Below, piece by piece: positions 6,409-19,580 of a stretch of 21,187 nucleotides of DNA. Made by a program: the position numbers and the translations under genes. Every line of letters begins with the position of its first letter. Position 1 is the first letter of the stretch. Origin of the DNA: a virus; IMG/VR virus record IMGVR_UViG_3300013286_000077, positions 1 through 21,187 of that record. One strand, written 5' to 3'. The notes under the pieces were generated by a model, which saw only the letters and a program-made list of their open reading frames with translations, was not told where the DNA came from and ran no database searches.

Positions 6409-6481
6409 TGCCCCATAGCTCAGTTGGTAGAGCACCGAACTGTTAATTCGGGTGTCCCTGGATCGAGGCCAGGTGGGGCAG
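6409..6481 (+). tRNA. tRNA-Asn (GTT)
   Basis: A full cloverleaf can be folded. The acceptor TGCCCCA pairs with TGGGGCA, the D arm is GCTC/GAGC, and the anticodon stem CCGAA/TTCGG holds loop CTGTTAA (anticodon GTT). The T arm is CCTGG/CCAGG with loop ATCGAGG, which departs from the usual TTCRANY. The discriminator is G and CCA is not encoded. It lies directly after the 6115 gene, apart from the main tRNA cluster. Confidence 0.9.
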
Positions 6482-6516
6482 CGAATTACTAATAAACTAA
6501 TTAAAGGAGTATAATT

Positions 6517-6735
6517 ATGAATATGACTATAAGCCAAGAAATTGAAGCAGTACAAGAAAAAGAATACATTTTGGGCCCCAGCACAAGATGCGATCAATGT
6601 TCTGCCGAAGCATTAGTTTTAGTAAAAGGTGTTGTTGGAGAATTAATGTTTTGTAAACATCACTACGAAAAAAATGAGTCTGCTTTATCAAAGTTTGCAT
6701 ATGAAACTATTGATGAAAGAGAAAAAATAAATTAA
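6517..6735 (+). CDS. DUF7455-like zinc protein
   Basis: The 72-residue protein contains TRCDQCSAEA and, about 20 residues later, ELMFCKHHYEKN. The pair CxxC...CxHH and the surrounding residues match a small actinobacterial family (DUF7455-like), in which it presumably binds one zinc. It is encoded by many actinobacteria and their phages, so it is one of the host clues in this window. An AAAGGAG ribosome site precedes the ATG at good spacing. Function is not established. Confidence 0.75.
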   Translation: MNMTISQEIEAVQEKEYILGPSTRCDQCSAEALVLVKGVVGELMFCKHHYEKNESALSKFAYETIDEREKIN

Positions 6736-6782
6736 AATCGCCTAATTGGGCAAATTAACAAACAACTAACAAAGGATAAAAA

Positions 6783-7079
6783 ATGAAGTTCAAGAAATTG
6801 ATCTCATCTGCTGTTCTATTTTTTGCAGCATTTATGGGAATTGCACCATCGTACGCAGATACACCAGTTGGATTTACACCAGCTTCAAATAAAATAATTG
6901 TTCAAACAACCACTCAAACCCCCGTTGGAGTAGGATTTACACCAGTTTCTCAGTATGTTGCAATTAAATCTTTTACGCTTTCTCCATACGTAACTTCTGT
7001 TTCTACAAATGTTCCTGCACAAATTTCTTCTTTAAAATTAGTACCAACAAATGTAACTTTTGGTATTCCAAAGAAGTAA
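6783..7079 (+). CDS. Small exported Thr/Val-rich protein
   Basis: The 98-residue protein begins with a clear signal peptide: Lys-rich n-region (MKFKKL), hydrophobic core (SSAVLFFAAFMG) and a likely cleavage after SYA near residue 25. The mature part is short and rich in Thr, Val, Ser and Pro, with two imperfect repeats (TPVGFTPAS and TPVGVGFTPVS). AAAGGA sits upstream of the ATG. No enzyme motif is present. It may be displayed on the host envelope during infection, for example for superinfection exclusion, but that is inference only. Confidence 0.75.
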   Translation: MKFKKLISSAVLFFAAFMGIAPSYADTPVGFTPASNKIIVQTTTQTPVGVGFTPVSQYVAIKSFTLSPYVTSVSTNVPAQISSLKLVPTNVTFGIPKK

Positions 7080-7086
7080 TGGGGTT

Positions 7087-7160
7087 GCGGGAATAGCTTA
7101 GTTGGTTAAAGCCCCGAACTCATAATTCGGTAATCGTAGGTTCAAGTCCTACTTCCCGCA
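7087..7160 (+). tRNA. tRNA with CAT anticodon (Met, elongator-like)
   Basis: The acceptor GCGGGAA pairs with TTCCCGC. The anticodon stem CCGAA/TTCGG carries loop CTCATAA, and the T arm GTAGG/CCTAC has loop TTCAAGT. The anticodon stem lacks the three G-C pairs of initiator tRNA and position 1 pairs with 72, so this is an elongator Met or a lysidine-modified Ile tRNA. The discriminator is A. It begins eight bases after the exported protein gene. Confidence 0.88.
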
Positions 7161-7164
7161 CTTC

Positions 7165-7237
7165 ACCCCAGTAATCCAGCGGTAGAGATAGTGGACTTAA
7201 AATCCATACAGCGACAGTTCGAATCTGTCTTGGGGTA
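7165..7237 (+). tRNA. tRNA with TAA anticodon (Leu codon UUA) but class I shape
   Basis: The acceptor ACCCCAG pairs with TTGGGGT (one G-T). The D stem is weak (three clear pairs). The anticodon stem GTGGA/TCCAT holds loop CTTAAAA, which gives anticodon TAA. The T arm GACAG/CTGTC has loop TTCGAAT and the discriminator is A. The variable loop is only five bases (ACAGC), whereas bacterial tRNA-Leu has a long variable arm. The amino acid charged is therefore uncertain. Confidence 0.75.
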
Positions 7238-7324
7238 CAAGGTCATAGATGGCACTTACTTAGGATGTTATAGTTACATATTACAAACTAACTGGGCACA
7301 TTCGCTCACCATCTATGATCCTTG
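7238..7324 (+). ncRNA. Long hairpin filling the gap between two tRNAs
   Basis: CAAGGTCATAGATGG (7238-7252) pairs with CCATCTATGATCCTTG (7309-7324). This gives fifteen base pairs with one bulged T. The stem begins on the base after the UAA tRNA and ends on the first base of tRNA-Gly. The 56-base interior contains a smaller stem (TAGTT at 7271-7275 with AACTA at 7286-7290). There is no T-arm sequence and no coding frame of note, so it is not a normal tRNA. It could be a processing spacer, a degenerate insertion or a small structured RNA. Confidence 0.5.
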
Positions 7325-7394
7325 CGGATGTTGCATATTGGTAGTGCCTCTGCCTTCCAAGCAGAAGGGGTCAGTTCGATTCTGATCATCCGCT
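7324..7394 (+). tRNA. tRNA-Gly (TCC)
   Basis: The acceptor GCGGATG pairs fully with CATCCGC. The anticodon stem TCTGC/GCAGA carries loop CTTCCAA, anticodon TCC. The T arm GTCAG/CTGAT (one G-T) has loop TTCGATT. The discriminator is T. Its first base is shared with the end of the preceding long hairpin. Confidence 0.9.
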
Positions 7395-7398
7395 CCAA

Positions 7399-7487
7399 GG
7401 AAGAATGGCTGAGTGGTCTAAAGCAATCGGTTGCTAACTGATCGTAGGAGTTAAATCTTACCGTAGGTTCGAATCCTACTTCTTCCG
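7399..7487 (+). tRNA. tRNA-Ser (GCT)
   Basis: A class II tRNA. The acceptor GGAAGAA pairs with TTCTTCC. The anticodon stem ATCGG/CTGAT holds loop TTGCTAA with anticodon GCT. A long variable arm follows (about 20 bases), then T arm GTAGG/CCTAC with loop TTCGAAT and discriminator G. The proper long variable arm here contrasts with the UAA tRNA nearby. Confidence 0.92.
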
Positions 7488-7492
7488 CTCTT

Positions 7493-7563
7493 TCCCAGAT
7501 CGTCTAACGGTAGGACACCGCCCTTTGGAGGCGGGTATCTTGGTTCGAATCCAGGTCAGGGAG
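7493..7563 (+). tRNA. tRNA-Gln (TTG)
   Basis: The acceptor TCCCAGA pairs with TCAGGGA except for one A-A mismatch. The anticodon stem CCGCC/GGCGG carries loop CTTTGGA, anticodon TTG. The T arm CTTGG/CCAGG has loop TTCGAAT. The discriminator is G. It is the last tRNA of the main cluster. Confidence 0.88.
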
Positions 7564-7578
7564 CAAATTTGGCTTTGG

Positions 7579-7607
7579 TTGCTAAATAATTAAATTGGTA
7601 GTAAAAT
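7579..7607 (+). promoter_or_regulatory. Promoter for the Cys-repeat gene; leaderless transcript likely
   Basis: TTGCTA (7579-7584) is followed after 17 bases by TAAAAT (7602-7607). Only six bases separate the -10 box from the ATG at 7614, so transcription would start at or next to the start codon. No ribosome site is present. The same -35 hexamer TTGCTA occurs at the minus-strand promoter near 9600. Confidence 0.55.
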
Positions 7608-7613
7608 GTATTT

Positions 7614-8285
7614 ATGACAACAACCAAATGTATGACTTGCGGATGTGATGATATGGGTAATGATCATCACTATATTTCAGATACTCAAAAATGTACATCT
7701 TGTATTGACAAGGGTCAAGGCCCATGTTGGGATGGATATGAATACGCTGGAACTAAAGATAAAGACGGAAAAACTGTTCCTAATTGTATTCCCGTTCAAA
7801 AAGGTGAGAAGTGCCCATCGTGCATGGAAAAAGGTCAGGGACCTTGTTGGGACGGTTATGAATATGCTGGAACCAAAGATAAAAATGGTAAAACCGTACC
7901 TAATTGTATTCCTGTAAAAAAAGCTGATGGATATCAACCAAATGCAGGCATGAAAGCAGCAGCCCGCAAAGCTTTAAAGTGGAAAGAAGATGGAAAAGCA
8001 AATGGTGCAGGTACGCCAGTTGGTTGGGGTCGCGCAAGCGATATAGTTGCAGGAAGATCAATGTCCTTAGATACAGTAAAAAGAATGTATTCTTTCTTTT
8101 CTCGTCATGAAGTTGATAAAAAAGGAAAAGATTGGGATAAACCATCACATGGAAATGTAATGTGGCACGCTTGGGGCGGAGATGCAGGGTTTGCATGGTC
8201 TCGTGCAATTGTTGCAAAAGAAGACAAAATTGCAAAAGAAATTTGGAATGGTGCATTTTCTCCAAGAATAAAAAATGGAAATTAA
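7614..8285 (+). CDS. Phage protein with Cys-rich tandem repeats and a conserved phage C-terminal domain
   Basis: The 223-residue protein has three parts. Residues 1-20 hold CMTCGC and an HH pair. Residues 27-61 and 67-101 are two copies of a 35-residue unit, C-x-x-C...GPCWDGYEYAGTKDK...PNC, each with four Cys that could bind zinc. Residues about 108-200 carry a domain I recall from various phage head or maturation proteins: ARKALKWKEDG, GWGRASDIVAGRSMSLDTVKRM, FFSRHEVDKKGK and WGGDAGFAWSRAIV. The C-terminus ends with W211-NGAFSP, a motif shared with two other proteins here. It is probably a virion or assembly protein. The start is fixed by the leaderless-type promoter just upstream. Confidence 0.7.
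   Translation: MTTTKCMTCGCDDMGNDHHYISDTQKCTSCIDKGQGPCWDGYEYAGTKDKDGKTVPNCIPVQKGEKCPSCMEKGQGPCWDGYEYAGTKDKNGKTVPNCIPVKKADGYQPNAGMKAAARKALKWKEDGKANGAGTPVGWGRASDIVAGRSMSLDTVKRMYSFFSRHEVDKKGKDWDKPSHGNVMWHAWGGDAGFAWSRAIVAKEDKIAKEIWNGAFSPRIKNGN
7692..7916 (+). repeat. Tandem 35-codon repeat, 120-base period
   Basis: Copy 1 is 7692-7796 and copy 2 is 7812-7916, both in frame inside the 7614 gene. The protein copies differ at only about four of 35 positions, all mild changes, while the DNA differs at many third codon positions. The duplication is therefore not recent and the protein sequence has been kept. Confidence 0.85.
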
Positions 8286-8673
8286 TAAAGAGTCTGCAGG
8301 CGCTGGTCGCATAAGCGGTGGCGTAGGTTTTAAACTTGAATATAATGTTCCAGATTGTCAAGGTGGCTACGCAGTAACTAAGGCGGGCACGGGACAAGTA
8401 ATTGGTTGTTATACAACCAAAGAACATGCAGAAGAAGCTTTAAAAGCAATTGCTGTTAATGAACCTGTAGTTAAAGGTGATCAAACAAAACAAGATCAAC
8501 AAGAAGGTATTGGTGCACTTCATACATGGTCTGGTTCATTTGCACCAGTTTTTGGTAATGAAAAAGTTCAATATGGATGGATGTCAACATATAACTCCCC
8601 ACCACAACATGATGGTGAACCATCAGTAGGCTATGCAAATAGCTCTAGCCCAAAGGGTAAATCTAACTCATAA
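8275..8673 (+). CDS. Small phage protein with a CxGGYAV...IGC domain and WSGSFAP motif
   Basis: The 132-residue protein overlaps the previous gene by 11 bases. Residues 28-60 (CQGGYAVTKAGTGQ, VIGCYTTKEHAEEALKAI) form a compact unit with two Cys, similar to a short domain I recall from actinophage structural or protease proteins. Residue W85 begins WSGSFAPVF, the motif also found at the ends of the 7614 and 11578 gene products. The C-terminal third is polar and low in complexity. Sharing of the motif and the tight coupling suggest that it acts with the 7614 product, probably in the virion. No catalytic residues are recognisable. Confidence 0.65.
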   Translation: MEINKESAGAGRISGGVGFKLEYNVPDCQGGYAVTKAGTGQVIGCYTTKEHAEEALKAIAVNEPVVKGDQTKQDQQEGIGALHTWSGSFAPVFGNEKVQYGWMSTYNSPPQHDGEPSVGYANSSSPKGKSNS

Positions 8674-8677
8674 AATA

Positions 8678-8686
8678 TGATATAAT
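8678..8686 (+). promoter_or_regulatory. Extended -10 promoter for hsp20
   Basis: TGATATAAT fits the TGnTATAAT extended -10 consensus and begins five bases after the stop of the 8275 gene. No good -35 is visible, which is normal for extended -10 promoters. Transcription would start near 8693, at the foot of the leader hairpin. Confidence 0.6.
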
Positions 8687-8693
8687 AATAGTA

Positions 8694-8746
8694 CAGAATG
8701 CCGTAAGGGTTCTGAATTTAACTAACTTGCTGAAAAGGAGCTAAGT
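8694..8746 (+). promoter_or_regulatory. hsp20 leader with two hairpins, one covering the ribosome site
   Basis: The first hairpin pairs CAGAA (8694-8698) with TTCTG (8710-8714), with an inner CC/GG around a GTAA tetraloop. The second pairs ACTTGCT (8725-8731) with AGC-T-AAGT (8739-8746), placing the AAGGAG ribosome site in its loop and stem. A weak stem over the ribosome site of a small heat-shock gene resembles an RNA thermometer. This is a hand-drawn fold only. Confidence 0.4.
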
Positions 8747-8749
8747 AAC

Positions 8750-9187
8750 ATGACTAATTTAACATATACAACAAATCCATTTGCACAAATTCAAACTATT
8801 TTTAATGACCCATTTTTTTTGGGCTTTGGTGATCAATTTGTAAGATGGGAAACAAACAAGAAAACAACATCTCAATTTCCACCATATAATGTAAAAAAGG
8901 TTGACGAAGACAATTATACAATTGAACTTGCAGTTGCGGGGTATTCTCGTGAAGACCTTGATATTAAGGTAGAAAAAGATACACTAACAATTAAAAGCGA
9001 GAGAGATAGCCTAGACATTGCAGATTATTTGCACAAGGGTATTGCTGGTCGCAATTTTACTCAACACTTTACATTGGGTGAATACATGGTTGTAAAATCT
9101 GCTTCTTTAGATAATGGATTGCTTTCAATTAATATTGAACGTGAGCTTCCAGAAGAGGCTAAGCCTAAGACTATTAAAATAAAGTAA
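8750..9187 (+). CDS. Hsp20 / alpha-crystallin small heat-shock protein
   Basis: The 145-residue chaperone has an alpha-crystallin domain at about residues 44-135. Visible landmarks are YTIELAVAGYSREDLDIKVE, LTIKSER, GIAGRNFTQHFTL and the end signature LDNGLLSINIERELPEE. An I-x-I tail (IKIK) at the C-terminus is the usual contact for oligomer assembly. The protein binds unfolding proteins without ATP. Phages of aquatic bacteria often carry such genes, possibly to help virion folding. It has its own promoter and a structured leader, and a good AAGGAG site. Family assignment is secure. Confidence 0.95.
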   Translation: MTNLTYTTNPFAQIQTIFNDPFFLGFGDQFVRWETNKKTTSQFPPYNVKKVDEDNYTIELAVAGYSREDLDIKVEKDTLTIKSERDSLDIADYLHKGIAGRNFTQHFTLGEYMVVKSASLDNGLLSINIERELPEEAKPKTIKIK

Positions 9188-9196
9188 TGCTATAAT
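9188..9196 (+). promoter_or_regulatory. Extended -10 element pointing into the convergent gap
   Basis: TGCTATAAT directly follows the hsp20 stop and matches TGnTATAAT. No plus-strand gene lies downstream; the next gene runs the opposite way. It may drive a short RNA (see 9202-9251) or be a chance match in AT-rich DNA. Confidence 0.35.
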
Positions 9197-9201
9197 TAAA
9201 T

Positions 9202-9251
9202 TCTGCACCCCTTCATCGGGGAGTCGCAGATTGAGGACCTGAGCATGTCCT
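9202..9251. terminator. Two hairpins between convergent genes (terminator or small RNA)
   Basis: Hairpin one pairs TCTGC with GCAGA and, inside, CCCC with GGGG around TTCATC (9202-9230). Hairpin two pairs AGGAC with GTCCT (9234-9251). On the minus strand hairpin one is followed by ATTTAATT, so it could end transcription of the 9265 gene. On the plus strand it follows an extended -10 element and could be a small RNA. The sequence does not decide between the two. Confidence 0.45.
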
Positions 9252-9264
9252 GTAATAAAAGGCT

Positions 9265-9564
9265 CTATTTATCTTTTTTGGTTACGGCTTCTTCAATTCT
9301 GTTGATTGCATCTCTTACAGATGAACCGCCGTTAGTAAATAATTCAGCTTTAATTGTACTGATTTCTTTTTCAAGAGTGTCAAATCTTGCATTACCATGC
9401 GCAAGGCGTTCAACAACTCCAGGAAATTCTTCAGTGCCATACCAGTCATCCATAAAACGAGTTGTAGATTGAATAAATTTAAACATTTTTGTTATAAAGT
9501 ATCCTATTGATCCAAGTGCAGTTGTAACACCGCCAATAAGCATTAATATATTAAGTGATGACAT
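9265..9564 (-). CDS. DUF2746-like membrane-anchored protein
   Basis: A lone minus-strand gene of 99 codons. The N-terminus has one membrane segment (about residues 5-26, NILMLIGGVTTALGSIGYFI). It is followed by an amphipathic stretch and a coiled-coil-like part ending in FTNGGSSVRDAINRIEEAV. The NGGSSxRDxxxRIE ending is the mark of the DUF2746 family of actinophages, often found near lysis genes. It may work with the lysis system, but direct evidence is lacking. The ATG is nine bases from a minus-strand TATAAT box and has no ribosome site, so the mRNA is likely near-leaderless. Confidence 0.75.
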   Translation of the reverse strand: MSSLNILMLIGGVTTALGSIGYFITKMFKFIQSTTRFMDDWYGTEEFPGVVERLAHGNARFDTLEKEISTIKAELFTNGGSSVRDAINRIEEAVTKKDK

Positions 9565-9573
9565 GATAGGTTA

Positions 9574-9602
9574 ATTATACAATAGTTTATCTCATATAGC
9601 AA
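9574..9602 (-). promoter_or_regulatory. Minus-strand promoter for the DUF2746-like gene
   Basis: Read on the minus strand, TTGCTA (9602-9597) is followed after 17 bases by TATAAT (9579-9574). The ATG begins nine bases later at 9564, giving a leader of about two or three bases. The -35 hexamer is identical to that at 7579. Confidence 0.6.
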
Positions 9603-9608
9603 GATTTC

Positions 9609-9638
9609 TTGACAAGAATATATTTAATATACTATAAT
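9609..9638 (+). promoter_or_regulatory. Consensus promoter, divergent to the minus-strand one
   Basis: TTGACA (9609-9614), 18-base spacer, TATAAT (9633-9638). Both hexamers are perfect sigma-70-type consensus. The -35 boxes of the two divergent promoters are only six bases apart, so a single bound protein could control both. Confidence 0.75.
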
Positions 9639-9671
9639 GTTATAAAGCAACAATTAACAGATTGGAATATA

Positions 9672-9809
9672 ATGGGAAAGCATCACGATAAAATCGTAGC
9701 AGCACTTAAGCAACGTCAAGCAGCAACAGGTCCAGGAGAAAAGAAAGCTGGATCTATGAACCCAAGAAAGACTGGATTTAGAGGGCATAAAGCTAAAGGC
9801 CCTAAGTAA
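9672..9809 (+). CDS. Small basic protein
   Basis: A 45-residue Lys/Arg/Gly-rich protein (MGKHHDKIVAALKQRQ at the start, GFRGHKAKGPK at the end). A longer frame opening with TTG at 9609 is rejected because that codon is the -35 box of the promoter. The ATG at 9672 leaves a leader of about 25 bases with only a weak TTGGA site. The charge suggests nucleic-acid binding or a capsid-associated role. No family recognised. Confidence 0.65.
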   Translation: MGKHHDKIVAALKQRQAATGPGEKKAGSMNPRKTGFRGHKAKGPK

Positions 9810-9814
9810 AATTC

Positions 9815-9823
9815 TGGTATAAT
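9815..9823 (+). promoter_or_regulatory. Extended -10 promoter for dps; leaderless
   Basis: TGGTATAAT lies six bases before the ATG at 9830, so transcription should begin at the start codon. There is no ribosome site. It follows the stop of the small basic gene by five bases. Confidence 0.6.
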
Positions 9824-9829
9824 AAGAAT

Positions 9830-10258
9830 ATGGAAGCAATACTAAAAGAACTACAGTCAATGGCAATGAAAATTTATGCCCAATCACACGGGTATCATTG
9901 GAATATAAAAGGACGTACATTCAAGCAAGATCACGCATTCCTACTAAAAATTTATAATGATGTATTTGATTCAATTGATACATATGCAGAAAGCTTAAGA
10001 AAAATAGGTGCAGTAGCGCCCTTTGGTTTAGAGCAACTACAACAAAATAGCGCATTAAGAATCAATGATTCATTAAATTTATCTTCAGAGCAAATGTTTG
10101 CTGAACTTATTAAAACAAATGCACAAATTATTGATAGATTAAAAGTTGGTTTTGATATTGCAACAGAAGCAAAAGAAAATGGTATCGCTAACTTTTTAGC
10201 AGATCGTCAAGATAAACATACATTTTGGCAATGGCAATTGACAGAAACATTAAAATAA
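9830..10258 (+). CDS. dps: Dps-like ferritin
   Basis: The 142-residue protein matches the Dps family of iron-oxidising, DNA-protecting mini-ferritins. The ferroxidase ligands have Dps spacing: His23 and His35 from one chain, Asp50 and Glu54 from the other (AQSHGYHWNIKG, FKQDHAFLL, DSIDTYAESLRKIG). The end LADRQDKHTFWQWQL is also typical. Dps dodecamers store iron and use up hydrogen peroxide. A phage copy could protect phage DNA or buffer iron during infection. There is no long basic N-terminal tail, so DNA binding may be weak. A clear terminator follows. Confidence 0.93.
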   Translation: MEAILKELQSMAMKIYAQSHGYHWNIKGRTFKQDHAFLLKIYNDVFDSIDTYAESLRKIGAVAPFGLEQLQQNSALRINDSLNLSSEQMFAELIKTNAQIIDRLKVGFDIATEAKENGIANFLADRQDKHTFWQWQLTETLK

Positions 10259-10283
10259 TAATATAATATAAATATGATTAAAC

Positions 10284-10310
10284 AAAAGGTCCTACGGGGC
10301 CTTTTGTGTT
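10284..10310 (+). terminator. Rho-independent terminator after dps
   Basis: AAAAGGTCC pairs with GGGCCTTTT around the loop TACG (a UNCG tetraloop), and a T-rich tail TTTTGTGTTT follows. It lies 25 bases after dps and just before tRNA-Arg. Confidence 0.8.
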
Positions 10311-10311
10311 T

Positions 10312-10384
10312 GCCCTTGTAGCTCAGAGGACAGAGCAAACGGTTTCTACCCGTAAGGTCGCAGGTTCGACTCCTGCCGAGGGCG
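10312..10384 (+). tRNA. tRNA-Arg (TCT)
   Basis: The acceptor GCCCTTG pairs with CGAGGGC (one T-G). The D arm is GCTC/GAGC. The anticodon stem has four pairs plus one A-A, with loop TTTCTAC and anticodon TCT. The T arm is GCAGG/CCTGC with loop TTCGACT, discriminator G. It reads AGA, a codon frequent in the AT-rich genes here. It follows a terminator, so it may be processed from readthrough or an unseen promoter. Confidence 0.9.
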
Positions 10385-10393
10385 CGGTATAAT
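10365..10393 (+). promoter_or_regulatory. Promoter for the CHAP lysin, overlapping tRNA-Arg
   Basis: TTCGAC in the tRNA T loop (10365-10370) and TATAAT (10388-10393) are separated by 17 bases. The -10 box is a perfect match, the -35 only partial. The lysin gene follows with a leader of about 26 bases and a strong GGAGG site. Confidence 0.5.
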
Positions 10394-12686: not shown

Positions 12687-12998
12687 ATGACAAATATACA
12701 GCCATTAGGCAGTCTGGTTTTAGTTAAAGAAAATAAGATGGAAGATAAGACAACCAAATCAGGTTTAGTTCTTACCGCTTCAGTTATTGAAAGCGGAGTA
12801 AAAAGAGGACAGGTTGTAAAAGTTGGATCGGGAGATCACGACAACGCTGGTAATCATTATCCAGTACCTCTTAATATTGGAGATACTGTCATCTATTCTG
12901 AGAATCATGTAACAGAAGTTGAAGATGATAATGAAAGAGAAAAGTATTATTTTATTAACTGGAGAAACATCCTTGGAGTACAGGAAGAGACAAACTAA
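12687..12998 (+). CDS. groES: GroES-like co-chaperonin
   Basis: The 103-residue protein follows the Cpn10 pattern. It opens with IQPLGSLVLVKE, then KTTKSGLVLTASV, where the mobile loop that contacts GroEL should lie. GQVVKVGSG and NIGDTVIYSENHVTEVE follow, and it ends in NILGV. Cpn10 caps the GroEL cage. No GroEL is encoded in this window, so it would work with the host chaperonin, as T4 gp31 does for the major capsid protein. The predicted roof loop (DHDNAGNHY) is longer than in typical bacterial forms. The stop overlaps the next start by one base. Confidence 0.9.
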   Translation: MTNIQPLGSLVLVKENKMEDKTTKSGLVLTASVIESGVKRGQVVKVGSGDHDNAGNHYPVPLNIGDTVIYSENHVTEVEDDNEREKYYFINWRNILGVQEETN

Positions 12999-13228
12999 TG
13001 CCAACAATTGAATTAAACTACGATCAAGCACATGCTTTTGTAGAAAAAAATAAAAACAATTATTTTTATTGGGATGGTTACACAATTGTTAAGTGGACCC
13101 CTGGTCACAATGGATTTATGCAAACAAATGGTTTATTTAAAAATAATAAGTGGGGATATGCATCTCGCTACAAACTAAATGCAAATGGCACTTGGAGAAT
13201 TAGTGACAAATATGCCAGGTTTATTTAG
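12998..13228 (+). CDS. Hypothetical aromatic-rich protein
   Basis: A 76-residue protein rich in Trp, Tyr and Asn (NYFYWDGYTIVKWTPGHNGF, KNNKWGYASRYKL, GTWRISDKY). The likely fold is a small beta sheet. Similar short proteins with WDGW...W.P...G.F...WG patterns are familiar to me from actinophages, without a known role. It starts in a TAATG overlap with GroES and its 3' end overlaps the WhiB gene by 17 bases. Promoter and expression are presumably shared with GroES. Confidence 0.65.
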   Translation: MPTIELNYDQAHAFVEKNKNNYFYWDGYTIVKWTPGHNGFMQTNGLFKNNKWGYASRYKLNANGTWRISDKYARFI

Positions 13229-13526
13229 TCATTTAGGTATTGATGAATCTGATATTAAATGGTATCACCTTGCAGCGTGCACAAATATGCCAATCAATTG
13301 GTTTTATGATAATTATGAATCAGACAAAGAGCTTGCAAAGCAGATAGATCAAACTTGTTTACATTGCCCAGTTATTAAAAAGTGTCATAGTGAAGGTATA
13401 AAGAACAAAGAAAAAGGTGTATGGGGTGGAGTGTTTATGGATCTTGGAAGACCAGATAAGCAAAACAATTCACATAAAGAACCTGAAACATGGAAACAAT
13501 TAAAGAAGCTTCATGGAAAAAATTAA
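13212..13526 (+). CDS. WhiB-like Fe-S regulator
   Basis: The 104-residue protein has the WhiB signature. Cys23, then Cys49-x-x-Cys52 and Cys58 would hold a 4Fe-4S cluster, followed by the turn GVWGG (69-73) and a basic C-terminal tail. WhiB proteins occur only in actinobacteria and their phages and bind sigma factor to change transcription. Phage copies (for example TM4 gp49) can interfere with host WhiB function and superinfection. I chose ATG 13212, with GGAGA 14 bases upstream, over ATG 13179, which has no ribosome site and would overlap the previous gene by 50 bases; the choice is not certain. Confidence 0.88.
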   Translation: MPGLFSHLGIDESDIKWYHLAACTNMPINWFYDNYESDKELAKQIDQTCLHCPVIKKCHSEGIKNKEKGVWGGVFMDLGRPDKQNNSHKEPETWKQLKKLHGKN

Positions 13527-15093: not shown

Positions 15094-15639
15094 ATGACAA
15101 CCATTGTAGCGGTATGTAAAAATGGTAATGTTACTATGGGTGCGGATGCACAAGTAACAGATAATTCAAGGCCTTCCAAGCATGTAAACATGGAAAAAAT
15201 TACTAAAAATAATGGTTATCTTATTGCTGGAAGCGGTGATTCTCAACCATGCGATATATTACAACACATTTTTATTCCACCAGTACCTACTGTACAAGAA
15301 AGAAAAAATCTTTACAAATTTATGATTGTTAAATTTGTTCCAGCAATGCGTGAAGTTTTAGAAGATAATGGTTGGAAGCCATCCACAGAAGATAAAGAAT
15401 CAGGATTTAATATGCTTTTTGCTTTTGATGGAGAAGTATTTGACATAGGCGATGACTTTAGTGTATTATTAAATGATAATGGCATATATGGGGTTGGAAG
15501 CGGTTCCCCATATGCTATGGGTGCTTTATATGCTGGGGTAAGTGTTGAAAAAGCTTTAGATATTGCTACTATTAATGATATTTATACATCTGGCCCTTAT
15601 CAAATTGTAAAACAGCAAAAACAAAATAAAACAAAATAA
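15094..15639 (+). CDS. HslV/proteasome-like Ntn hydrolase
   Basis: The 181-residue protein matches the HslV/20S-beta fold. The N-terminus MTTIVAVCKNG would expose Thr2 as nucleophile after Met removal. GADAQ supplies Asp18 (the D17 position), and the partly buried Lys35 (MEKITK) matches HslV K33. The stretch IYGVGSGSPYAMGALYAG corresponds to the GSGGxYAxAA motif, and ALDIATINDIYTSGP to the HslV end. Length is close to HslV. No HslU, Mpa or other ATPase is seen here. It may use a host ATPase or act alone on small or unfolded proteins. AAGGA precedes the ATG. The fold is well supported; the partner and substrate are unknown. Confidence 0.85.
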   Translation: MTTIVAVCKNGNVTMGADAQVTDNSRPSKHVNMEKITKNNGYLIAGSGDSQPCDILQHIFIPPVPTVQERKNLYKFMIVKFVPAMREVLEDNGWKPSTEDKESGFNMLFAFDGEVFDIGDDFSVLLNDNGIYGVGSGSPYAMGALYAGVSVEKALDIATINDIYTSGPYQIVKQQKQNKTK

Positions 15640-16774: not shown

Positions 16775-16810
16775 GGGGGGGCGGGATTATGTTCCGTCCT
16801 CTTTGGTTTT
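16775..16810 (+). terminator. Probable terminator after the surface protein gene
   Basis: A G-rich run ending GGGGGCGG pairs with CCGTCCTC (one or two G-T pairs) around a loop of about nine bases, followed by TTTGGTTTT. It sits in the 60-base gap before the APS kinase gene. The loop and wobble pairs make it only moderately convincing. Confidence 0.5.
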
Positions 16811-16821
16811 AAAGGAAAATA

Positions 16822-17574
16822 ATGATAATTCAAATTATTGGTTTGCCTGGATCGGGTAAAACAACTTTAGCTACTGAGCTTTCTGGTCGTATAAACGCAG
16901 TACACCTTAATGCAGACCACGTTAGGTCAACAGTTAACTCTGATCTTGGTTTTACACCTGAAGATCGCAAAGAACATGCTCGTCGTATGGGGGAGATGTC
17001 TCGTTTATTGTCTGGACAGGGTTTAGATGTAGTCGTTGACTTTATCTGCCCAACACAAACAACTCGTGAGGCATTTGGTAAGGCCGATATCTTGGTTTGG
17101 ATGGACACCATTAAAGAGGGTCGTTTTGAAGATACCAATAAGATGTGGGAAATTCCTACCGTCTTTGACTACAAGTTTGAGACTTTTGACGCAAATGCTC
17201 ATGTAGATAACATTATTTTTACTTCTAATCTTCATGATTGGAAAGCTCCTACAACCTTGATGTTGGGGCGTTATCAGCCGTGGCATGAAGGACATCACGC
17301 TTTATACCATGAAGCTAAGGAACGCACCCAACAGGTAATGCTGGGTGTTCGTAATACTCAAGGAACCAGTGAAAAAGATCCGCTCAGCTTTTATGAGGTA
17401 AAGGGGTATATTTTATCAGATCCTGCTATGTCTGAGGCTATGGTTGTAAAGATGCCTAATATTACTAATATTGTTTACGGCAGAGACGTTGGATACAAAA
17501 TAGAACAAGTGCATCTTGGTGCAAACATTGAAGCTATTTCTGCCACGCAGAAACGTAAAGAATTGGGTATTTAA
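16822..17574 (+). CDS. APS kinase (CysC-like) fused to an HxGH nucleotidyltransferase
   Basis: The first half (residues 1 to about 135) is an adenylyl-sulfate kinase. It has P-loop GLPGSGKTT (7-15), NADHVR (30-35), DLGFTPEDRKEHARR (41-55) and FICPTQTTR. It phosphorylates APS to PAPS. The second half (about 143-250) is a small nucleotidyltransferase: LGRYQPWHEGH with the HxGH site at 155-158, then VYGRDVGY and ISATQKRK. This order (HxGH, GRD, IS-x-T-x-x-R) is shared by ATP sulfurylase and NMN adenylyltransferase families, so it may make APS or a nicotinamide nucleotide. A full ATP sulfurylase is much larger. Two sulfotransferases downstream favour PAPS synthesis. AAAGGA precedes the ATG. Confidence 0.85.
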   Translation: MIIQIIGLPGSGKTTLATELSGRINAVHLNADHVRSTVNSDLGFTPEDRKEHARRMGEMSRLLSGQGLDVVVDFICPTQTTREAFGKADILVWMDTIKEGRFEDTNKMWEIPTVFDYKFETFDANAHVDNIIFTSNLHDWKAPTTLMLGRYQPWHEGHHALYHEAKERTQQVMLGVRNTQGTSEKDPLSFYEVKGYILSDPAMSEAMVVKMPNITNIVYGRDVGYKIEQVHLGANIEAISATQKRKELGI

Positions 17575-17805
17575 ATGAAAGTGACTAAATCAAGGTCTTT
17601 ATTTAAAGCATTGCTTTGGAGATTAATTGGTTCTATAGATACGTTTATTGTTTCCTTATTGATTACTGGAAATGGTAAATGGGCAGTTGGAATTGCAAGT
17701 GTTGAAGTTTTTACAAAAATAATTTTATACTATTTACATGAAAGATTATGGAATTTTATTAAATGGGGTAAGATAGACAATGAATCAAACCTTAGAAATA
17801 AATAA
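17575..17805 (+). CDS. DUF2061 membrane protein
   Basis: The 76-residue protein matches DUF2061: KSRSLFKALLWRLIGSIDTF, a first membrane segment (SLLITGNGKWAVGIA), and a second ending KIILYYLHERLWNFIKWG. It starts immediately after the kinase stop, and its end overlaps the first sulfotransferase by 26 bases. The family has no proven function. From memory, it is found next to sulfate-assimilation genes in some bacteria, which fits this cassette; I could not check that here. It may recruit the sulfation enzymes to the membrane. Confidence 0.8.
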   Translation: MKVTKSRSLFKALLWRLIGSIDTFIVSLLITGNGKWAVGIASVEVFTKIILYYLHERLWNFIKWGKIDNESNLRNK

Positions 17806-18628
17806 AAAGCTTTATTTTTTACATATTCCTAGGGTGGGTGGCATGGCTATTACCCATATGGTAAATGCAACGTTAGATACAAATAATATTGCACGTTATC
17901 CTAGCAAATTTTTTGTAAACAATCTAAATTTAGAGCAGCCTTTAAATTTTAACAACTATTTATTTATACAAAGACATCTTGGCACTTATCCAATAGGAAA
18001 AGCAAAAAATTTGGATGTGGCTTGTTTATTTAGAGATCCACTTGAAAGAATAGTTAGCAATTTTCACCTTGCTTGGAATAAATTTATAATAGGAAATCCA
18101 AAATATGAAATTTTTGATGAAATAGAAGACAAATTAAAATATTATTTAATTGATGATGAACAGCACAAATTACAAAATAATTTGCAAACAAGATATATTT
18201 GCAATTCTATAGAGGAATGTGTTGCACAAATAAGGTTTAATGAAACACCTATGTTAAAAAAATATACTGATGATTTTAATTTAATTGATAAGTCAACGCA
18301 CAGCTGGCACATACTTAATAATCAAACTTCTGTAGAATTTGCAAAAAAACAAATAGATAGTTTTTCAATCATTGGAATTTCTGAAAAACATGATGATTTT
18401 AAAAATAAAATTAAAGATTGGTTTTTAAATAATTACGGATTAATATTAAATGATTCTTTTGTTATAAATAAAATTAATCAAACATTAATTAATTATAAAA
18501 ACAAACAATATTTAAATTCAGATTTAATTGCTATGTTAAATGATAATGACAAAAAAAACATATTAAAAAATAATCAAATGGATTTTGAAATTTATAATTA
18601 TGTAAAGGAAAAAATTAATGTTAAATAA
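17780..18628 (+). CDS. Sulfotransferase, copy 1 (altered PAPS loop)
   Basis: The 282-residue protein belongs to the Sulfotransfer_2-like group. The 3'-phosphate-binding site is intact (CLFRDPLERIVSNF, residues 82-95). The conserved His is present in RHLGTYP. The 5'-phosphosulfate loop is altered: HIPRVGGMA (15-23) instead of HIPKTGGTS, so the Lys is Arg and both Thr are lost. It may therefore have lower activity or bind PAPS without transfer. It shares clear similarity with the next gene over its whole length (for example LQTRYICN, IGISEKHDDF), showing a tandem duplication. The C-terminus is Asn/Lys-rich. The acceptor is unknown. Confidence 0.82.
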   Translation: MNQTLEINKKLYFLHIPRVGGMAITHMVNATLDTNNIARYPSKFFVNNLNLEQPLNFNNYLFIQRHLGTYPIGKAKNLDVACLFRDPLERIVSNFHLAWNKFIIGNPKYEIFDEIEDKLKYYLIDDEQHKLQNNLQTRYICNSIEECVAQIRFNETPMLKKYTDDFNLIDKSTHSWHILNNQTSVEFAKKQIDSFSIIGISEKHDDFKNKIKDWFLNNYGLILNDSFVINKINQTLINYKNKQYLNSDLIAMLNDNDKKNILKNNQMDFEIYNYVKEKINVK

Positions 18629-19334
18629 ACAATTTTATTTGTTGCATATACCAAAAACAGGTGGCACGTCAGTCAGTTTAAGCTTATATAATTCTTTGCA
18701 TCAAAATGGATTAAAATCTTATCCAAATAAAAGACCACCCCATGAAAAAAATTTGAGCGAATACGTTTATATTGGTGCACATTTAGGTAGAAATCCAATT
18801 AACTCAATAGATAATTTAAGTGTTGGCTGCATATTGAGAAATCCTATTTCAAGATCTATTAGTAATTTTTTGTGGATTAAAGATTCTATATTAGAAAACA
18901 AATACAAAAATGTTAAAGATAAATTAAGACATTATCTTTTTGAAGACCCAGATTATTTTGATCATTACAATATTCAAACAAGATTTATCTGTAATAATCA
19001 AAAACCTATTGATATGATAGATTATCAAATCTGGTCAAGAAACTGGTATTTAAATAATAAGTTGGATGTAAATTTTGCAAAATCAGAGTTAGATTGTTTT
19101 GAAATTGTAGGAACACAAGACAAACATCGTGATTTTACAGTTAAAGTACATGATTGGTTTGACAAAAACTATAATATTAAGATAGAATATAATATAGAAA
19201 GACATGATTTAAAATCGGAAACTTCTGAATATTTATTAAACACATTAACAAAATCAGAAAAAGAAAAAATTTTAAATAATAATTATAAAGATTATGAGCT
19301 TTATGCTCATGCAAAAGAAAGGGTATCAAAATGA
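18618..19334 (+). CDS. Sulfotransferase, copy 2
   Basis: The 238-residue protein has an intact PAPS loop, HIPKTGGTS (10-18), and the His motif GAHLG (53-57). The 3'-phosphate site is CILRNPISRSISNF (71-84), with Asn in place of the Asp of copy 1 (RDP to RNP). It should transfer sulfate from PAPS to a hydroxyl or amine. The gene overlaps copy 1 by 11 bases and uses AAGGA as ribosome site, so both are made together. The shared stretches (IQTRFICNN, DKHRDF, DWFDKNYNI) show common origin. The acceptor might be host exopolysaccharide, a glycan on phage particles or lipid. Confidence 0.88.
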   Translation: MLNKQFYLLHIPKTGGTSVSLSLYNSLHQNGLKSYPNKRPPHEKNLSEYVYIGAHLGRNPINSIDNLSVGCILRNPISRSISNFLWIKDSILENKYKNVKDKLRHYLFEDPDYFDHYNIQTRFICNNQKPIDMIDYQIWSRNWYLNNKLDVNFAKSELDCFEIVGTQDKHRDFTVKVHDWFDKNYNIKIEYNIERHDLKSETSEYLLNTLTKSEKEKILNNNYKDYELYAHAKERVSK

Positions 19335-19552
19335 CTAATGACATTCCAGTAGGGTTAAAAGATTTAGAAACAATTATTACTAAAGTGGCAGCGGATTTGC
19401 TTGAAGAATGGGCAATTAATGATAGGTTTAGTGAAGATGATATGGAAAAAGCTTCACAAATGGCAGTTGATGATACAGTATTTGTAATTAATGCTTATAT
19501 GGCAATCTTTAATGAGCTTATTATTCTTGCTCAAACTGCAAAGTTAACATAA
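19331..19552 (+). CDS. Small hypothetical protein
   Basis: A 73-residue acidic helical protein coupled to sulfotransferase 2 through an ATGA overlap. It reads MTNDIPVGLKDLETIITKVAADL and ends in AYMAIFNELIILAQTAK. No motif is recognised. It is the last gene of the plus-strand run and is followed by a bidirectional terminator. A partner of the sulfotransferases is possible only by position. Confidence 0.6.
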   Translation: MTNDIPVGLKDLETIITKVAADLLEEWAINDRFSEDDMEKASQMAVDDTVFVINAYMAIFNELIILAQTAKLT

Positions 19553-19556
19553 TGAA

Positions 19557-19580
19557 AAAGGCACTCAAATGAGTGCCTTT
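19557..19580. terminator. Bidirectional terminator
   Basis: AAAGGCACTC pairs perfectly with GAGTGCCTTT (ten pairs) around AAAT. On the minus strand it is followed by a run of five T, on the plus strand by TTTAATC. It separates the convergent plus-strand sulfation cassette from the minus-strand lysis genes. Confidence 0.88.

Follow-up and report, generated by a model that had tools for sequence, protein, structure and literature searches.

PAPS is the universal sulfate donor. To our knowledge, the established ATP sulfurylases are of two kinds only, Sat and CysDN. The described systems closest to the phage protein considered here are PAPSS1/2 and bacterial CysNC: in all of them an APS-kinase domain is joined to a partner that transfers adenylyl groups, with PAPS, for use by sulfotransferases, as the product that we propose here, and in PAPSS, as in the phage protein, the kinase is N-terminal and the adenylyltransferase C-terminal. 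However, the phage protein has 250 residues against about 620, its kinase lid region diverges, and its C-terminal domain is NadM-like and has no sequence homology to ATP sulfurylase. Taken singly, the two halves recall CysC (PF01583, TIGR00455), with which the first shares the Walker A motif, the DGDxVR..N.DLGF..DR signature and the fold, and the NadM-type NMN adenylyltransferases, which share the motifs GRxQPxHxGH and ISxTxxR with the second and are its closest solved fold. Among phages, the phrog_10255 “kinase” of Stenotrophomonas, Xanthomonas and Clavibacter phages has the same two-domain build and is about 40% identical, but neither DUF2061 nor a sulfotransferase is annotated beside it in two loci, from Stenotrophomonas and Clavibacter phages. 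Phage-borne sulfotransferases are also represented by the Sulfotransfer_3 genes of marine OM43 phages; unlike the present locus, no sulfate-activating gene is mentioned with them in the part of that paper considered here, which states that the function of phage sulfotransferases is unclear (PMC10580990). In the literature searched, no PAPS synthase of such build from phages or SAR11 was found, subscription papers and preprints lying outside the search.

The window analyzed here is the whole of a 21,187-base virus contig from IMG/VR (IMGVR_UViG_3300013286_000077), and the features on which the argument turns are as follows.

16775-16803, plus strand: terminator-like hairpin of 13 pairs between the preceding gene and the cassette (pattern match only)
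16822-17574, plus strand: kinase-NTase gene, 250 aa, from ORF, Pfam, PDB search and fold models; residues 1 to about 135 are the APS-kinase-like domain, residues about 139-250 the NadM-like HxGH nucleotidyltransferase (NTase) domain
16840-16863, plus strand: Walker A motif GLPGSGKT, residues 7-14
16906-16968, plus strand: APS-kinase signature LNADHVRSTVNSDLGFTPEDR, residues 29-49
17266-17295, plus strand: nucleotidyltransferase motif GRYQPWHEGH, residues 149-158
17476-17496, plus strand: family-specific motif Y-G-R-D-V-G-Y, residues 219-225
17536-17556, plus strand: ISATxxR motif, residues 239-245
17575-17805, plus strand: DUF2061 small membrane protein, 76 aa, found with the kinase in most close relatives
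17780-18628, plus strand: sulfotransferase 1 (ST1), 282 aa, borderline Sulfotransfer_2 match, altered 5'-PSB motif HIPRVGGM
18618-19334, plus strand: sulfotransferase 2 (ST2), 238 aa, borderline Sulfotransfer_2 match, phrog_3347 match, motifs HIPKTGGTS and RNPISRSIS
19331-19552, plus strand: fifth ORF, 73 aa, no significant match
19557-19580, strand not assigned: symmetric terminator-like hairpin between the cassette and convergent lysis-type genes (pattern match)

The original prediction had described a cassette of four tightly packed genes with zero or overlapping gaps. The four ORFs are indeed present, with spacings of 0, -26 and -11 bases across kinase-NTase, DUF2061, ST1 and ST2, but the unit reaches beyond them: the 73-aa ORF shares 4 bases with the end of ST2 and is likely a fifth member. 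Terminator-like hairpins flank the five-ORF unit on both sides. Its GC content is a mosaic, at 41% in the kinase gene, 27% in DUF2061 and 23-25% in the sulfotransferases, against 36% in the remainder. With rather more belief than doubt, we propose to read the 250-aa protein as a compact PAPS synthase whose NadM-like domain would serve as the sulfurylase; it would pass PAPS to swappable sulfotransferases, and the cassette would thus be a self-sufficient sulfation module.

The identity of the N-terminal half as an APS kinase is well supported by its sequence and predicted fold, its activity being a prediction. The Pfam APS_kinase model matches with 61.2 bits (cut-off 21.1), the best matches of a PDB sequence search are all APS kinases (E 2e-11), and the AlphaFold2 model of this half (pLDDT 92.8) finds APS kinase or PAPSS chains in all of its best 50 Foldseek matches against the PDB (E 6e-9 to 4e-7). 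Alignment by hhalign with a bona fide CysC, taken from a cysH-cysC locus, gives E 3e-17 and places the signature on DGDNVR..LNRDLGF..DR of CysC with D32, R35, N39, F44 and R49 at matching positions. These lines of evidence agree with the kinase domain first read from the DNA. G7, P9, G10, G12 and K13 of the Walker A motif are invariant in 61/61 sequences, as are D32, R35, F44 and R49 of the signature; the D, R, F and R of DGDxxR...GF...DR are the established APS-contact residues of APS kinases. Filing this half simply as CysC would nonetheless be wrong, because the Pfam match covers residues 2-84 only (profile positions 4-91 of 152), leaving the second half of the profile without a match, and because the NCBIfam apsK model (TIGR00455) gives 61.3 bits over residues 2-84, below its curated cut-off of 138.7.

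The C-terminal half, of 112 residues (model pLDDT 92.3), is a nucleotidyltransferase by its Pfam CTP_transf_like match (21.4 bits, cut-off 21) and is nearest to NadM-type NMN adenylyltransferase both by PDB profile search (E 6e-10) and by fold (Foldseek, E 9e-4), and it carries the two NadM motifs. It is not a plain NadM: the curated NadM model TIGR01527 gives 18.9 bits against a cut-off of 181.2, the domain is shorter, and it has invariant residues of its own, among them R177, N213 and YGRxVGY, the last with G220, R221, V223, G224 and Y225 invariant and D222 variable. An oxyanion substrate would be in keeping with the two arginines, both invariant. As for the known sulfurylases, Sat-type homology (PF01747) was found neither by Pfam nor by PDB profile search nor among the top 50 Foldseek matches, and hhalign against Sat aligned 12 columns only, with a probability of 5.7% and ISxTxIR as the sole common motif. 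We therefore rejected a degenerate Sat; a likeness to the GRDHAG motif of Sat was also discarded, the Asp of the NTase not being conserved. No domain of the CysD/CysN type (PP-loop CysD plus GTPase CysN) was found in the cassette by Pfam.

The kinase family is not phage-specific. A genome scan placed kinase-NTase genes on contigs from SAR11 and SAR86, from further alphaproteobacteria and from a small number of other organisms. The two domains are fused in phages and some SAR11, and are adjacent genes of about 136 and 124-130 aa in other SAR11 and in SAR86; since they are fused in some genomes and split but adjacent in others, it is very probable that both halves serve one pathway. Sulfotransferases recur in these cellular settings. 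A Rhizobium ORF of 555 aa holds Sulfotransfer_2 (E 2.9e-7), APS kinase and NTase in one frame, and in SAR11 a Sulfotransfer_2 gene directly follows the kinase (L224), Sulfotransfer_1 genes directly precede it (L293, L297), or an ASST arylsulfotransferase (E 6e-32) and a Sulfotransfer_3 gene lie between the two halves (L219).

HldE, acting on heptose, and NadR, acting on nicotinamide riboside, each couple a kinase step to a subsequent nucleotidyl transfer. By analogy, the fused enzyme might activate a substrate other than sulfate, the kinase phosphorylating an alcohol, sugar or nucleoside before the NTase adenylates or cytidylates the product, in which case the sulfotransferases would be neighbors only through shared glycan-decoration islands. 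The nearness of the NTase to NadM would fit this, as would the many phage loci without a sulfotransferase and the SIS isomerase-like, glycosyltransferase-like, NeuB-like and pyruvate-kinase-barrel genes that neighbor the SAR11 kinase-NTase. We nevertheless consider it possible but doubtful, given that the kinase, which has CysC as its nearest relative, retains the residues through which APS kinases contact APS, that the neighboring sulfotransferases come from several different families with one directly fused, and that the NTase is shorter than NadM (112 against about 167 residues).

Several other features of the SAR11 loci may be recorded here. The split genes also occur among one-carbon/betaine-type genes, named by sequence inspection. 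A truncated pyruvate-kinase-barrel protein of about 325 aa adjoins the kinase-NTase or a second APS-kinase-like gene in several loci (L290:2034-3014, L296:2031-2996, L294:1692-2699 and L289:3126-4100); the barrel match is 9e-47 in L290, and the other three were assigned by inspecting the sequence. At L289:4097-6909, a 184-aa APS-kinase-like gene has sulfotransferases on both sides, in a genome where Sat was not detected. In L286, L287 and L288, the split kinase and NTase genes are separated by the genes of two or three very large secreted-type proteins of about 590-780 aa.

The distribution of the known sulfurylases bears on the compact PAPS synthase that we propose. Sat (PF01747 over cut-off) is absent from 48/50 bacterial genomes with the enzyme, CysD from 49/50 and both from 47/50 (Sat accompanies it in 2/50, CysD in 1/50), absences that are soft, as are the p-values below, because bacterial genomes are often incomplete, their completeness is not reported here and related genomes are not independent. 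Within 118 SAR11-family genomes, the NTase is found in 59, PF13469 sulfotransferases in 49 and Sat in 5, and the NTase and PF13469 co-occur (32/27/17/42, Fisher p 0.009). Seven genomes of this family have an APS kinase in a frame of CysNC size (607-630 aa), one of them with CysN-like and CysD-like genes side by side (L285); the NTase is present in one of the seven, so that mutual exclusion of CysNC and NTase in SAR11 is a trend only (p 0.11), and we do not claim it. Because 47/50 genomes with the pair have neither Sat nor CysD, supply of APS by the HxGH domain, as first suggested from the DNA, stands as the best remaining explanation, although in both sequence and fold the domain resembles NadM rather than any ATP sulfurylase. 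A wider proposal, on which we are evenly divided, is that the NadM-like domain represents a third, unrecognized class of ATP sulfurylase and the family a minimal PAPS synthase that serves sulfation in SAR11, SAR86 and numerous aquatic phages without Sat and CysDN.

The same numbers bear on a second alternative, in which the kinase half makes PAPS from APS provided by a host sulfurylase and the NTase half is unrelated or regulatory. While the APS-kinase-like character of the first half and the three bacterial genomes in which the pair does coexist with Sat or CysD are compatible with it, the lack of both sulfurylases from the other 47, the strict conservation of the NTase motifs and the fusion or adjacency of the halves across distant bacteria make it quite unlikely.

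Relatives of the kinase-NTase were found in more than 580 viral stretches, including a divergent branch, at about 40% identity, that links to the Stenotrophomonas, Xanthomonas and Clavibacter phages. A DNA-level search of cultured phages gave no match. DUF2061 (71.9 bits, gathering 23.1) begins no more than 600 bp behind the kinase gene in 88/145 scorable viral loci and 18/42 non-redundant ones; it stands behind the kinase in 14/17 representatives of the close clade and 4/25 divergent ones. The pairing is more than chance. In one proteobacterium (L282:5873-7710, minus strand), DUF2061 lies directly behind cysH-cysC, which ties it to an APS kinase. This is the one clear cys link among 12 DUF2061-bearing bacterial loci (L273-L284), and we rejected DUF2061 as a general cys-operon gene.

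Sulfotransferases change places around this pair. In the closest relative (L004, kinase 93% identical), a sulfotransferase lies upstream, followed by an unrelated gene and then by the kinase and DUF2061; elsewhere one is found directly upstream of the kinase (L029, L013), directly downstream of DUF2061 (L028), or downstream after two other genes and DUF2061 (L007). Immediately upstream of the kinase in four divergent marine-type phages (L088, L094, L096, L101) is a tandem pair of sulfotransferase-like genes, with weak matches to Stf0 in two of these phages. Most viral kinase loci have no recognizable sulfotransferase within a few kilobases. The four-gene order occurs only in the source contig among the loci examined, being lost even in L004, so the idea that relatives would show the same set and order fails; in the gene-order check on related phages set beforehand, the kinase-DUF2061 core was kept and the four-gene order was not. 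Since sulfotransferases vary in presence and position, kinase-NTase and DUF2061 make up the conserved core and the sulfotransferases are exchangeable, in agreement with the GC split between the kinase (41%) and the sulfotransferases (23-25%).

ST1 and ST2 themselves are borderline matches to Sulfotransfer_2 (22.4 and 21.8 bits, gathering 22), and both carry motifs of the 5'-PSB and 3'-PB type (PKxGG; R.P..R..S). Those of ST2 are intact, and it matches phrog_3347, galactose-3-O-sulfotransferase (2e-5); a viral-contig search with ST2 confirmed no relative, so that by this method it is not widely conserved. The 5'-phosphosulfate-binding motif of ST1 reads HIPRVGGM where relatives have HIPKTGGM/T, and judging from this Lys-to-Arg change its activity may be altered. 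For viral loci, 149 non-redundant genes lying no more than 1.5 kb from the kinase were compared with 149 genes at a greater distance in the same loci: Pfam detected Sulfotransfer_2 in 7 of the near genes, Sulfotransfer_1 in 5 and Sulfotransfer_3 in 3, where one gene may match several models, versus Sulfotransfer_2 in 2 of the more distant ones. With 15 sulfotransferase queries, phmmer matched 14/149 near genes versus 1/149 farther ones, the near count being slightly inflated because 4/15 queries are themselves near-kinase genes. Counts from iterated sulfotransferase HMMs were dropped, many of their matches being without PAPS motifs, and Pfam and motif-checked counts are used instead. Sulfotransferases are thus recurrent but interchangeable partners of the kinase, and the original assignment of the two sulfotransferases to its pathway is supported by a tie seen again in divergent phages, in SAR11 and in one fusion. 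That unrelated cargo genes gathered by chance in a variable phage region, as the mosaic GC content and the four-gene order unique to this contig among the loci examined might suggest, is very unlikely in view of the recurrent kinase-DUF2061 pair, the enrichment of sulfotransferases beside the kinase and the overlapping genes in one hairpin-bounded unit.

Returning to the compact PAPS synthase, we suggest a plausible route for sulfate. The C-terminal NadM-like HxGH domain would adenylate sulfate with ATP to give APS, and the N-terminal domain, whose assignment is well supported by sequence and model, is predicted to phosphorylate APS to PAPS. The downstream sulfotransferases, swapped between phages, would then use PAPS to sulfate an acceptor that is most probably a glycan of the surface or the virion, as the neighboring glycosyltransferase, epimerase and tail genes suggest. 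DUF2061 may assist this pathway at the membrane, with sulfate supply or holding the enzyme there as candidate roles; the anchor first suggested from the DNA gained no support from the loci compared here. Because many bacteria with the enzyme are without known ATP sulfurylases, the phage would need no host PAPS.

Among the other genes of the contig are those for a terminase, a Holliday junction resolvase, a CHAP endolysin and a holin-like protein. The stretch 6409-10385 contains seven tRNA genes (Asn, Met, Leu, Gly, Ser, Gln, Arg), six of them clustered at 6409-7564; an HslV/proteasome-like peptidase (phrog_1040, 3.7e-31) is at 15094-15639. Hsp20, GroES-like and WhiB-like genes are found at 8750-9187, 12687-12998 and 13179-13526, respectively, and the presence of the WhiB-like regulator suggests an actinobacterial host. 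Far from the cassette, at 1917-2573, there is a family 2 glycosyltransferase, a possible partner in glycan decoration.

The question can be reduced to one purified 250-aa protein. If its NTase makes APS, it would be a new enzyme class. The cassette offers a first functional handle on phage sulfotransferases, and if our proposal is true, phages carry in a complete sulfation pathway, and a compact sulfurylase would explain how sulfate is activated in streamlined ocean bacteria that have many sulfotransferases.
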